Shown piece after piece: positions 706 to 8,549 of a stretch of 30,414 nucleotides of DNA. Source of the DNA: a virus; IMG/VR virus record IMGVR_UViG_3300037189_011560, positions 1-30,414 of that record; one strand, given 5' to 3'. How positions within the stretch are numbered: the stretch's first letter is position 1; every line of letters starts with the position of its first letter. Made by a program: the position numbers and the translations under genes. Below the pieces are notes generated by a model. The model was not told where the DNA came from and ran no database searches. It saw nothing but the letters and a program-made list of their open reading frames with translations.

Positions 706-741
706 AGCCCTGCGTATGGTTCGACTACGCAGGGCTTTTTT
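706..741 (+). terminator. Rho-independent terminator
   Basis: A perfect 11-bp stem (AGCCCTGCGTA at 706-716 with TACGCAGGGCT at 726-736), a 9-base loop and six T residues (736-741). It ends the small-gene operon about 110 bases after its last stop. The bases between 595 and 705 hold no supported gene. A TTGACG at 604-609 looks like a -35 box, but no acceptable -10 follows at normal spacing. Confidence 0.85.
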
Positions 742-1250
742 GTGCCCGTGATCGCACCGCCTCACAGCGATAAGGGCGAGAAGGGCCGGCAACGCGCAAG
801 CGGGAGTCGGACAATCGGTGCCGGCGCTGTTGAACAGCAAGGCGGCACTAGACAGCCAAGGGGCATTTTTAAGCCGCGCAGTATCGTCAGGACGCGTGGG
901 GCGAATGATGCCCTAGGAGATGAGCAATCGGATTAAGAAGCGCCGAAAGGAACTTGCCGACACGCCACGCTCTTTGCGGAGAGAAAAGCGACTTTTCCGC
1001 CCCTTGGCTGCTTAGTGCTGCCCGACTCCCAGCCGGGTAAACAGGGGGCGCAAGCCCGTGAGCCGATGGAACGTGTGTAAAGTTGGTCCTACCCGAGCGC
1101 GTCCATCAATGTCCTATACGGATTCCATAGTCGAAGCGCATTGCTTCCAAGTAGCTCGCCCCCGCGATGGGGTGAGCTATGCCTAGCCGTTTTCCATGAG
1201 CGAAACGCACGGCTCCCTCGGCAACGCGCAACCGATGCAAAATGCGCAAC
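742..1250 (+). ncRNA. Candidate large structured non-coding RNA, unidentified family
   Basis: No convincing gene lies here, yet the stretch is full of helices. A 9-bp stem pairs 802-810 with 1022-1030. Inside it lie a hairpin (817-823 with 843-849) and a perfect 10-bp stem pairing 853-862 with 1001-1010. That stem encloses local hairpins at 874-899, 899-913, 938-955 (GAAA tetraloop) and 976-1000. Downstream are a GGGC/GCCC hairpin with a GCAA tetraloop (1046-1057), a helix 1065-1070/1102-1107, a helix 1108-1112/1138-1143, a near-perfect 12-bp hairpin (1151-1180) and a hairpin at 1185-1214. Both GNRA loops and the G-U pairs make sense only on the plus strand. The exact ends and the promoter are not visible. 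It could be a phage-borne ornate RNA, a packaging RNA or a long regulatory leader. All pairings were found by eye. Confidence 0.65.
787..1231 (+). repeat. 13-base direct repeat flanking the structured RNA core
   Basis: CGGCAACGCGCAA occurs at 787-799 and again at 1219-1231, in the same orientation and 432 bases apart. A partial third copy (GCGCAACCG) follows at 1244-1252, matching the sequence after the second copy. The repeats bracket the folded core. They could be remnants of an insertion, recombination sites, or duplicated RNA docking sequences. Confidence 0.5.
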
Positions 1251-1252
1251 CG

Positions 1253-1287
1253 TTGACACACGGCGCGAAGACAAGCGCCAATGTCAA
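1253..1287 (+). promoter_or_regulatory. Hairpin enclosing the start codon of the gpW-like gene
   Basis: TTGACA (1253-1258) pairs perfectly with TGTCAA (1282-1287), and inside it GGCGC (1262-1266) pairs with GCGCC (1275-1279). The ATG at 1281-1283 lies in the 3' strand of this structure and no Shine-Dalgarno motif precedes it. Translation of the first head gene may therefore need the hairpin to be opened. TTGACA also resembles a -35 box, but no -10 follows at proper spacing. Confidence 0.45.
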
Positions 1288-1571
1288 TCAACACCACATC
1301 GCAGACGGTTCCGACTGGTCCCTATTGGGGGTTCACGCTGGACGAGCTTGAAACGGAGCAGGCGAAATTGATTGCGGAAAGGAAGGCGCTCAATAACCGC
1401 CTTTTGGGTTCGTCTGTCAACGGGCAGAGCTTCCAGTTTGCGGGGCTAGATCAACAGCGCGTTGAGCTAGACCGCAGGATGCTGGATTTGCAGGCGGCTT
1501 TCTACTACCTCGACCCCGGTCGCTTCCCGCTGCAAGCGCCGACCAACGCCGGCGTAGTCGCCTTCATTTAA
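1281..1571 (+). CDS. gpW-like head-tail joining (head completion) protein
   Basis: A 96-residue protein directly upstream of the portal gene, the place of lambda gpW. Residues about 19-77 form a helix (LDELETEQAKLIAERKALNNRLLG), a short strand pair (SSVNGQSFQFAG) and a second helix (RVELDRRMLDLQAAFYYLDP). This is the helix-hairpin-helix order of the gpW family, which binds the portal and prepares the head for tail attachment. The C-terminus is about 20 residues longer than in lambda gpW. The start codon sits in a hairpin and lacks an SD. Assignment rests on size, pattern and position; the exact family remains unproven. Confidence 0.6.
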   Translation: MSINTTSQTVPTGPYWGFTLDELETEQAKLIAERKALNNRLLGSSVNGQSFQFAGLDQQRVELDRRMLDLQAAFYYLDPGRFPLQAPTNAGVVAFI

Positions 1572-1600: not shown

Positions 1601-3166
1601 ATGCCCTCTGTTATTCTCGACGGTTTCGGACGCCCCGCGCAGGTCAACGGTGGGGGACAACTTTATGCCAGAACGCAAGATGACGCCCGCCTTCGCCCGC
1701 CACCCGGCTGGCACTTTGACGACTACATTTCCCTTCTTAGCGCGGGTCGCTGGAAAAACCTTGTCAGCGAAAGTCGCGCAATCGGTTCTCGCGGCATGGT
1801 CAGCGCAGCGATTGCGCAAAAGGCCGACTACGTAAGCGGAAGCGGTTGGCGTCCGTTTTTCACGGGCGATGACACGGAATACGGCGAGGCGGCGGAATCG
1901 TTGCTGGAGGATACGCGCAACCTTTGTTGCACGCGTGGGCCGCGCTACGATTGGCGCACGTTTTGGCGATTGGGTGTTGTGGCGTCGGCGCTGGACGGCG
2001 GATTCTTTGTGCTACTGACGCAGAACAAAGACGGCTGGCCGTTGCTGCAACCGCTGGAGGCTCACCGCATCGGGCAGCGCGGCGGCGGGGCTGGCGGCAT
2101 CGTGGCAAAAGGCTCGGCGTTCTCGCGTGCGAAGATTGACGACGAAGGCGGCACGGAGATCATTGAAACGCCCTACACTGGGCTGCGCATCATCAACGGC
2201 ATCATCTACAATCAGGCGGGCGCGGAAGTCGCGTATCGTGTGCTTGGCGAGACGCCGGACCACGACGAAGACATTTCTGCGCGTGACATGGTTCATGTCG
2301 GCGCGCCGCGTTGGTTCTCGGAAGGTCGCCCGATTCCGCAGATCGCTCCGGCATTGCTCGACCTGCTCGGCGTGGATTTGGCGCGCTCGGCTCAACTTGA
2401 CCAGCAGGTTATCAACAGCAAATTGACGCTGATTGAGACGAACGAAACGGGGCGGCGCGACCCGGTAAAAGACCTAGTGAACCCGCCGTTCACGATGCCG
2501 ACGCTCAACAACACGGCACCCGAGGTCATCGAGCGCGGACATATCCGCTACGTGAAGCAGGGTGGCAGCATCACGGCGCACAAGAGCGACACGCCGGGAA
2601 GCGGCTGGATGGAATTTGATTTGCGCACGGCGGCGACGGCTATCGCGGCAATCGGCTGGCGCTTGGAAATGCTTGACCCTAGCGCGCTGCGCGGTGCGGC
2701 GACGCGGGCGTTTCAAGACCAAGTAAATACGCTCATCGGGAACACGTTCTCGGAATTTGAGCACGCCGTGGCGCGCTGCACGCGCTATCGCGTTGCGAAG
2801 TTCACGAAACGCGGCGACTTGCCCGTGCATCCCGAGTTCCTGAAATGGGGCGTTACCCCGCCGCCTGAGTTCGTCGTAGATCGCAACTCAACGCGCATCG
2901 ACATCGAGGCGGTCGCGGCTGGCGCGGACGCAATGCCATTCCTTCACCGCCGCGGCGGTCATCGTCCGCAGCAAGTGCTCACGGCGCAGGCGAAATACGT
3001 CGCTCTCAAGAAACAGATCGCGGCGAAATACGGCGTTGAGGAATCCGAGCTAGGCAACACGGACAACGCGCAGACGAGCGACAACGTGGACAAATCCACG
3101 GCAACGCCCGACGGCGCGGCGCAAGGCGCACCCGCGTTTGAGCCATACCCAAAAACCAAGCCATAA
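1601..3166 (+). CDS. Phage portal protein, lambda gpB-like family
   Basis: At 521 residues this is close to lambda gpB (533). The N-terminal part has the typical run after the start of the clip/wing region (AIAQKADYVSGSGWRPFF), and the middle has the conserved stretch around HVGAPRWFSEGRPIPQIAPAL followed by LLGVDLARSAQLDQQVINSK. These are marks of the lambda-type portal family. Twelve copies form the ring at the head vertex through which DNA is packaged, and which joins the tail. The C-terminal 60 residues are low-complexity (NTDNAQTSDNVDKSTATP). The ATG follows a C-rich leader with no SD. Downstream it is 9 bases from the protease gene. Confidence 0.93.
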   Translation: MPSVILDGFGRPAQVNGGGQLYARTQDDARLRPPPGWHFDDYISLLSAGRWKNLVSESRAIGSRGMVSAAIAQKADYVSGSGWRPFFTGDDTEYGEAAESLLEDTRNLCCTRGPRYDWRTFWRLGVVASALDGGFFVLLTQNKDGWPLLQPLEAHRIGQRGGGAGGIVAKGSAFSRAKIDDEGGTEIIETPYTGLRIINGIIYNQAGAEVAYRVLGETPDHDEDISARDMVHVGAPRWFSEGRPIPQIAPALLDLLGVDLARSAQLDQQVINSKLTLIETNETGRRDPVKDLVNPPFTMPTLNNTAPEVIERGHIRYVKQGGSITAHKSDTPGSGWMEFDLRTAATAIAAIGWRLEMLDPSALRGAATRAFQDQVNTLIGNTFSEFEHAVARCTRYRVAKFTKRGDLPVHPEFLKWGVTPPPEFVVDRNSTRIDIEAVAAGADAMPFLHRRGGHRPQQVLTAQAKYVALKKQIAAKYGVEESELGNTDNAQTSDNVDKSTATPDGAAQGAPAFEPYPKTKP

Positions 3167-6523: not shown

Positions 6524-7164
6524 GCAAGATCCAATTATTCCCGACCGTCGCGCAACTGACTGCGACCGTCGCCAGCAAATCCAAGCTCCCCGAGTTTGTT
6601 GACCTCCAAGGATGGAACAGCGACCACAAAATCTTTGACGAGTTGGTTGAGGACGTTCAGCCAAAAGTCATCGTCGAAGTCGGAACGTGGAAGGGCCGCA
6701 GCGCGTGGCACTTTGCCGAGGCATCGCAACGGTTTGGCAGTGAGATTTATTGCGTCGATACTTGGCTCGGCGGCATTGACCATTTCCTTTCGGACAAGCC
6801 GCAAGACGACCTGCACCGCGACGAACACGGCACGCCGCAAATCTACGAGCAATTCCTCCGCAACTTCCGCGACCATCACGCGGCGGGGCGCATCCATCCC
6901 GTGCGCCAAACGAGCGTAAACGGTGCGCGTGCGCTTGCGTCTCGTGGCCTGTTTGCTGACCTCATCTACATTGACGGATCTCACGAATACGAGGACGCCT
7001 ACACTGACATTTGCGCTTACGCGCCACTCGTTGCGCCTAACGGGCGAATCTTTGGCGACGATTACGCGAGCTTCCCCGGCGTGCAAATCGCCGTGCATCG
7101 TTACGCGATTGAGTTTAACCGCCGCGTCAAAGTTGTGGACGGCAATTTCTGGATTCTCAGCTAA
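6520..7164 (+). CDS. Class I SAM-dependent methyltransferase (Methyltransf_24-like)
   Basis: A 214-residue protein. Motif I is EVGTWKGRSAW (about 53-63), the acidic residue ending strand 2 is Asp80 in YCVDTW, and IDGSHEYEDAYTDI (151-164) and IFGDDYA (177-183) follow. This pattern is typical of the Methyltransf_24 group, which is often found in glycan, sugar or small-molecule modification loci. It is not a DNA methyltransferase: it lacks DPPY or SPPY. Paired with the glycosyltransferase that follows 9 bases later, it may methylate a sugar attached to a virion protein. The substrate is not known. Start chosen at ATG 6520 because of the ATGA overlap. Confidence 0.85.
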   Translation: MSKIQLFPTVAQLTATVASKSKLPEFVDLQGWNSDHKIFDELVEDVQPKVIVEVGTWKGRSAWHFAEASQRFGSEIYCVDTWLGGIDHFLSDKPQDDLHRDEHGTPQIYEQFLRNFRDHHAAGRIHPVRQTSVNGARALASRGLFADLIYIDGSHEYEDAYTDICAYAPLVAPNGRIFGDDYASFPGVQIAVHRYAIEFNRRVKVVDGNFWILS

Positions 7165-7173
7165 CAACCAACC

Positions 7174-8016
7174 ATGAAACCACTCGACAAATACGACCTC
7201 CGCGCACCGATTGCCAAGAAAGGCGCGGGCGCTCAATCGCACTTCCTTTCCGTCATCGCCTTTGACGGGAACGTGACGATGAACACCTTTGATTCCGTGA
7301 TGCTCGCGCAGCACGAACACAAGCTTTGGAACGGCTGGAAGGTTCACGCCGGCGAAGGACAAGTGCGCTCGCGCAACGAGTGCGCGCACCTGTTCCTCGC
7401 CAAGACGCCATGCACGCATCACTTCTTCTGTGACGCGGACGTAATGTTTCAGCCGCGCCACGTCAAAGCACTTCGCGCCCATCCCGAAGCCGCCGACTCA
7501 ATCATTGTCGGCCTCTACGCTAAGAAACAATCCGAGATTTCTTACCCGTTCAATTCGCTGAAAGGCGGAAACCCCGAGCCAAACGCACGCGGGCTGATGG
7601 AAGTTTCCAAGGCAGGCACGGGATTTATGCAGATTCCCCGCGTCGCTTATGAGAAGATCATGGCGAAGTTTCCCGAGCGCGTTTACAAGTGCGACTACGA
7701 CATTGACGAAAACGGCGTGCGCGCCGACCGATTCTCGTTTTTCTTTCACGACATCCGACTCGACACCGAGCTAGGTTTTATGCGCGACCAGTCGGAAGAT
7801 TGGGCTTTCTGCGAAATGGCTCGCGCCGCCGGCGTGAAGATTTACGTGGACGTGACGACAACGGCATGGGTCAAGCAGGACGAGCCGTGCATCCTGCACA
7901 GAGGGCTTGCGCTCTACCCGCTGCAAACCGAGATGCAACGCCTTGACCTAGAAGAAAAGCTCAAGGCAGCGCACGACGAGATTGCCAAGCTAAAGGGCGA
8001 GCGAGGAGCTAACTGA
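7174..8016 (+). CDS. GT-A fold glycosyltransferase-like protein with DxD motif
   Basis: A 280-residue protein. The segment FFCDADVMF holds the DxD metal/nucleotide-sugar motif (Asp87, Asp89), preceded by a GT2-like region (VRSRNECAHLFLAKTPCTH). SEDWAFCEMARAAG (207-220) carries the Glu-Asp pair that acts near the acceptor in GT2-type enzymes. LYAKK and GTGFMQIPR are also typical of this fold. The C-terminus (253-276) is a short Glu/Lys coiled coil, perhaps for docking. It probably transfers a sugar onto a virion or host glycan. Placed between head and tail genes, with a methyltransferase, it suggests a decorating cassette. Confidence 0.85.
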   Translation: MKPLDKYDLRAPIAKKGAGAQSHFLSVIAFDGNVTMNTFDSVMLAQHEHKLWNGWKVHAGEGQVRSRNECAHLFLAKTPCTHHFFCDADVMFQPRHVKALRAHPEAADSIIVGLYAKKQSEISYPFNSLKGGNPEPNARGLMEVSKAGTGFMQIPRVAYEKIMAKFPERVYKCDYDIDENGVRADRFSFFFHDIRLDTELGFMRDQSEDWAFCEMARAAGVKIYVDVTTTAWVKQDEPCILHRGLALYPLQTEMQRLDLEEKLKAAHDEIAKLKGERGAN

Positions 8017-8018
8017 CC

Positions 8019-8186
8019 GTGAACTTAACGCACGCTATGCTATACTTTTTAATTGGCGGGCTGGCGTGCGTTATCGCGGCGGTTGCCGTTTTGCTCATCA
8101 TCGCAATCGCCTATTGTGTTTGGCGATTTTGGCGGCACTTGCGACGCCCGCCAGCCGATCCGCCGCCGTGGATTCGCAGGCTTTGA
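8019..8186 (+). CDS. Small single-pass membrane protein
   Basis: A 55-residue protein starting GTG, with AGGAG at 8004-8008 ten bases upstream. Residues about 7-34 form one strongly hydrophobic segment (LYFLIGGLACVIAAVAVLLI), followed by a basic cytosolic-like tail (WRFWRHLRRPPADPPPWIRRL). The orientation by the positive-inside rule is N-out/C-in. It starts 2 bases after the glycosyltransferase stop. The function is unknown; it may anchor or assist the glycosyltransferase, or act in superinfection exclusion or lysis. Size and topology are clear, the role is not. Confidence 0.65.
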   Translation: MNLTHAMLYFLIGGLACVIAAVAVLLIIAIAYCVWRFWRHLRRPPADPPPWIRRL

Positions 8187-8201
8187 CATGCGCGCAAAGG
8201 C

Positions 8202-8549
8202 GTGGGCCTATTCTCCGTCATAACCGCAGCCGCGACCGATGCGCAAAACGTCATTGCCGAAATGCAAGGCGCTGCGACGGACGCAACTAACTTCCTTGTC
8301 AACGGGTTTGAGGGCAAAGGCGTGTTTGGTCGGGCGCAAGTTGTGGACGTGCCAAACGTCGGCGGCGGCTATCGTAAGCGGTCGGAAGTCGTGCTGATGG
8401 CAACTCGCGACCAATTCACGATCATTCCCGAGCCCAAGCAAAAGCTCGTTCGCACGGACATTTCCCCGACAATCACTTACCTGATTGACGTGGTTGACGT
8501 GAACGACCCGCTACACGTCACCTTCATCCTCGTTAAAAACGGCCAATGA
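8202..8549 (+). CDS. Probable head-tail connector / adaptor protein
   Basis: A 115-residue protein starting GTG. The N-terminal third is helical and Ala-rich (SVITAAATDAQNVIAEMQGAATDATNFL), and the remainder is beta (FGRAQVVDVPNVGGGYRKRSEVVLMATRDQF ... TITYLIDVVDVNDPLHVTFILVKN). Small beta proteins with this kind of ending occur as head-tail joining proteins between head and tail modules. AAAGG just precedes the start at poor spacing. Its stop overlaps the next start as ATGA. The assignment rests on position and style; no signature motif is visible. Confidence 0.5.
   Translation: MGLFSVITAAATDAQNVIAEMQGAATDATNFLVNGFEGKGVFGRAQVVDVPNVGGGYRKRSEVVLMATRDQFTIIPEPKQKLVRTDISPTITYLIDVVDVNDPLHVTFILVKNGQ

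Follow-up and report, generated by a model that had tools for sequence, protein, structure and literature searches.

The window analysed here is the complete IMG/VR record IMGVR_UViG_3300037189_011560, 30,414 bases long, and its virion genes include a lambda-type portal, an S49 head protease and a GP7-like major capsid gene. Among named phages, Verrucomicrobia phage P8625 is the nearest (portal identity 33.5% over 93%); it is a lytic phage infecting a marine verrucomicrobium (PMC4642752). A terminase related to those of the phage contigs L003 or L043 was not found in the window, and part of the genome is therefore probably missing. No supported gene occupies the gap from the end of a small ORF at 594 to the start of a head gene at 1281. 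This head gene has relatives in L003 (43%) and L043 (48%) and no match in PHROG or Pfam. The gap and the genes that follow it contain these features:

706..741, plus strand: terminator-like hairpin with an 11-bp stem (706-716/726-736) and a 9-nt loop, followed by a T run; read from the sequence
742..1216, plus strand: structured RNA region whose outer limits are uncertain (fold z -2.3 to -2.5); no family-supported gene
814..819, plus strand: conserved block AUCGGU, the 5' edge of the core; identical in the relatives L003, L239 and L222
818..848, plus strand: helix P2 (818-823/843-848) enclosing hairpin P2a (826-830/834-838, UGA loop); placed by hand
841..1030, plus strand: window-specific expansion with a long helix 841-864/999-1022 (23/24 pairs) and helix 802-810/1022-1030 outside it (9/9 pairs)
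1046..1063, plus strand: P3, GNRA hairpin GGGC-GCAA-GCCC, then GUGAGC; GNRA hairpin in 4/4 members
1065..1107, plus strand: P4, outer helix 1065-1069/1103-1107 and inner helix 1071-1076/1097-1102, the inner with compensatory changes
1133..1147, plus strand: P5 hairpin GAAGC/GCUUC; kept in L003 and L239, one compensatory pair aligned in L222
1151..1180, plus strand: P6 hairpin of 12 bp with conserved GGGUGAGCU on its 3' side; kept in 4/4 members
1281..1571, plus strand: downstream head gene, 96 aa, gpW-like by position only
1601..3166, plus strand: portal protein gene (phrog_21 and PF05136)

The terminator-like hairpin stands just 5' of the structured RNA; with its 9-nt loop it was missed by our terminator scan, in which the loop limit was 8. 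A similar hairpin with a T-rich stretch also lies 5' of the RNA in L003 and L239. Directly after it, on the minus strands (L003 4103-4149, L239 5446-5490), both contigs carry TTTTCTGTTTT, which may mark a common 5' feature. A convincing promoter for the RNA was not found. As a separate observation, several virion genes have the motif TTGACA about 25-60 nt ahead of their starts (window 1253, 4029, 9903 and 15047; L003 4385 and 11355). It is also present before the same head gene in the close relatives L047, L048 and L049, and in L003 TATAGA comes 11 nt after it; the motif may represent a phage or host promoter type.

Relatives of the RNA were found in three other phage contigs, L003, L239 and L222. 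The first belongs to the same phage group as the window (portal 65% identical), a group that we recruited through protease and portal scans. Here 584 nt separate TerL from the homologous head gene, and the minus strand of this gap matches the plus strand of the window over the 3' domain (34.4 versus a shuffled maximum of 18-20, z 14); the element is therefore inverted relative to the head genes. A motif pattern scan built on these two copies, followed by a covariance model, led to L239 (58.1 bits, E 6e-14), whose phage has a different terminase (phrog_38) and portal (phrog_146). The copy in L222, a 60-kb phage contig, came from a second covariance model and is weak by that model (21 bits); its membership is secure by sequence, at z 22 with L239 and z 17 with L003. 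All three relatives have GCGUYGAACGCCUNAANUCCAAC in common, and L222 and L239 additionally share GAUACCCGAACCG. Pairwise local alignments lie 6.9 to 10.5 sd above dinucleotide shuffles with the window and 17 to 37 sd above them among the three relatives, and the homology is confined to one strand, the opposite strand giving background. Two sequence patterns, GCGTYGAACGCCTNAANTCCAAC and GTGTAAN{1,3}TTGGN{2,8}CCGAGCG, would suit a search for further members.

Searches further afield added little. Phage and plasmid sequences searched by blastn with the RNAs of the window, L239 and L222 returned nothing useful, and 396 Bacteroidota genomes, searched with model R3 and without a positive control, gave no match. 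A pattern match in L205, a Flavobacteriales MAG, was taken as chance, and weak model matches at P8625 4600-4679 and L003 11289-11365 were set aside because they come without the hairpins; L216 and L218 also gave weak model matches.

Compared by sequence, the four carriers share collinear blocks and helices on one strand. The order is AUCGGU, P2, P2a, CUNAANUCCAAC (in three members), P3 with GAGC, P4 with GUGUAA and CCGAGCG, P5, and P6 with GGGUGAGCU. In its compact form the RNA is about 220 nt long, and the window copy (about 814-1214) is larger by about 180 nt; AUCGGU and GGGUGAGCU stand 169-180 nt apart in three members and 356 nt apart in the window. The difference resides in the expansion at 841..1030, for which no counterpart was seen in L003, L239 or L222. 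Its long helix partly competes with the conserved local helix 818-823/843-848, and AAUGAU at 904-909, within the expansion, is shared with L003 and L239. Conversely, the CUAAAAUCCAAC block, conserved in the three relatives, is absent from the window.

The helices of the core are maintained through sequence change. P2 differs in 4/4 members and yet pairs in each (window GUGCCG/CGGCAC, L003 CGGGG/CCCCG, L239 GGGAG/CUCCC, L222 ACCCGG/CCGGGU), the P3 stems read GGGC/GCCC, GAGC/GCUC, GCC/GGC and AGGC/GCCU, and the outer helix of P4 changes fully between members, while GUGUAA is conserved and the tip at 1083-1086/1093-1096 ends in CCGAGCG; the placement of P2, P3 and outer P4 was manual, which favours pairing. 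In the 3' domain of the four members, 96% of the cells for 21 pairs are paired and five pairs are compensatory. As high a value was reached by 5 of 500 shuffles, and sliding the partners by 1-3 columns keeps 34-49%; this alignment was fitted to its structure and so leans toward pairing (n=4 sequences). The covariation support that can be read from four members is accordingly modest. The paired changes between the window and L003 include G-C to G-U types, which fixes the RNA strand, and the G-U changes in P6 are compatible with the plus strand only.

A first-pass annotation had proposed a large structured RNA of no recognised family at 742-1250, and its central claim is borne out by the relatives, the compensatory changes and the strand asymmetry. 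The helices it drew also all pair as drawn: 802-810/1022-1030, 1065-1070/1102-1107 (6/6), the 12-bp hairpin 1151-1162/1169-1180 (12/12), and 853-862/1001-1010 (10/10), which is part of the longer helix 841-864/999-1022. Both GNRA tetraloops are present, but only GCAA at 1050-1053 is kept in 4/4 members, GAAA at 945-948 being unseen in the others. The pseudoknot suggested between CGGGT and ACCCG is not supported: its bases pair (5/5), yet the conserved P4 tip (1093-1096) takes up part of ACCCG, and an equivalent partner was not seen in the relatives. The RNA does lie inside the proposed extent, although the conserved part is narrower, about 814-1214. A protein-coding origin, which the annotation had named as grounds against an RNA, was rejected; the region has no protein family match, and gaps of 1-5 nt in the relatives break every frame.

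Excess folding stability over shuffled sequence, also put forward as a check, is moderate, with z -2.46 on the plus strand and -2.10 on the minus strand for 742-1250; twenty 475-nt stretches elsewhere in the window range from about -2.0 to +3.0. Stability of the 3' domain (1031-1216) is confined to the plus strand (z -2.4 versus +0.33), whereas 800-1032, owing to its long inverted repeat, folds stably on either strand. The RNA of L239 folds with z -2.35 versus +0.70 on its opposite strand, and values are weaker in the other members (L222 alone -1.1, trimmed L003 RNA -0.5).

No known family accounts for the RNA. Rfam, used at gathering thresholds and with E up to 10, gave nothing convincing. 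Models for group I and II introns and HEARO had no match at E up to 10 in the window, L003, L239 and L222 regions; tmRNA had no Rfam match, and neither a tRNA-like domain nor a tag reading frame was found. ARAGORN detected no tRNA or tmRNA in the window and eight relatives, mostly fragments (L239 and L222 not among them). The GOLLD model RF02032 had no match at E up to 10 in the window, L003 and L047, and none in the region scan. The ROOL model RF03087 likewise had no match, in the region scan as well, and control genomes also gave none.

How is the RNA placed in its carriers? The window copy runs in the same direction as the head genes, those of L003 and L239 lie antisense to terL, and the L222 copy is convergent with the next gene. 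Because the orientation varies and no downstream gene is common to the carriers, the RNA is not a conserved leader of the head operon or of any one gene. Three copies out of four map to the terminase/portal region of their genomes, and this remains a lead; the L222 copy has as neighbours a GroEL gene and genes without known function, at a distance from any recognised packaging gene. The GroEL gene, at 6925-8529 of the RNA-bearing phage contig L222/L246, encodes a chaperonin (phrog_5725). In L047, whose TerL is 97% identical to that of L003, the gap from TerL to the head gene carries a different, palindromic element. This element (L047 2325-2478) has perfect 17-bp inverted ends (TTAATTCTATCGGGAGC) and, on the minus strand, a hairpin resembling a tRNA T arm; the DNA on its flanks closely resembles that of L003. 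The idea of a tRNA-like element that this hairpin raised was dropped, as ARAGORN finds nothing and the element is not homologous to the RNA. Adjoining the swapped element, about 159 nt of non-coding DNA are 89% identical between L003 (4250-4405) and L047 (2476-2634).

The variable orientation and differing neighbours point to an RNA gene that is probably independent of its neighbours. We favour the view, with reasonable but far from full confidence, that the locus encodes a non-coding phage RNA which stands alone, acts in trans and belongs to a family outside Rfam. Such an RNA would be transcribed as its own unit, in the window insulated from upstream transcription by the terminator-like hairpin at 706..741, and would fold into a core that closes near AUCGGU and comprises helices P2-P6; to this core the window copy adds an extra arm of about 180 nt. 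It would then act in trans during infection, alone or as an RNA-protein particle, and would not control the adjacent gene. More tentatively, and with the odds somewhat against so broad a claim, the RNA may belong to a widespread, unrecognised trans-acting family that has its own core of about 220 nt, moves between unrelated phages and performs a general infection task such as host takeover or counter-defence. Orphan structured phage RNAs are few, and their functions are mostly unknown. Because its core is compact, its sequence blocks are strong and its four members come from clearly different phages, this family is searchable in large metagenome collections and the RNA is open to transcript mapping; if a general trans-acting phage RNA is indeed at hand, it would be a further class, one overlooked by standard RNA libraries.

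Other readings of the locus deserve weight. That L003 and L047 bear different elements at the same spot, and that orientation differs among carriers, would suit an RNA-guided or mobile cassette (an orphan guide RNA, an intron or ribozyme remnant, or a miniature element) inserted either way. We consider this unlikely, since no intron, ribozyme or HEARO model of Rfam matched, the subset of window proteins scanned revealed no neighbouring transposase, reverse transcriptase or RNA-guided nuclease, and no target-site duplication was demonstrated. Slightly less likely still is a cis-acting head-operon leader (an attenuator, antiterminator or riboswitch-like element) controlling the genes from 1281 onward: the window RNA does immediately precede the head genes, shares their strand and stands behind a terminator-like hairpin, but the antisense copies of L003 and L239 and the converging gene in L222 speak against it. 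The long inverted repeat 841-864/999-1022 and a position independent of orientation could also reflect an element acting at the DNA level, an origin or a site of packaging or recombination, with inverted repeats that mimic RNA helices. The one-strand G-U pairs, the conserved GNRA loop and the strand-specific folding are, however, properties of RNA, and make this explanation improbable.

The stand-alone phage RNA that we favour can finally be set beside known systems, all of which the first-pass annotation had brought up. Like phi29 pRNA it is a phage RNA gene, and most copies are near packaging genes; unlike pRNA, it is fixed neither in position nor in orientation, the terminase and portal families differ between the L003 and L239 carriers, one copy is distant from any recognised packaging gene, and L047 lacks a copy in the gap where L003 has it. 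The suggested pRNA-like packaging role thus finds no support, and we regard it as very unlikely. A highly divergent cage-forming RNA of the GOLLD or ROOL type is equally hard to credit: neither Rfam model matched, although such models may miss remote relatives, and the RNA is not near tRNA genes. GOLLD RF02032 is also phage-carried, structured and orphan, with a conserved 3' and a variable 5' region as here, but many GOLLD RNAs exceed 800 nt (PMC12286853); the present core is about four times shorter and has no tRNA array nearby. ROOL RF03087, with 574 model positions, is likewise much longer than the compact members and differs in its tRNA island, yet it too is an ornate RNA carried by phage without a known protein partner. 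The RNA described here is a new family within this known kind, the orphan structured phage RNAs.
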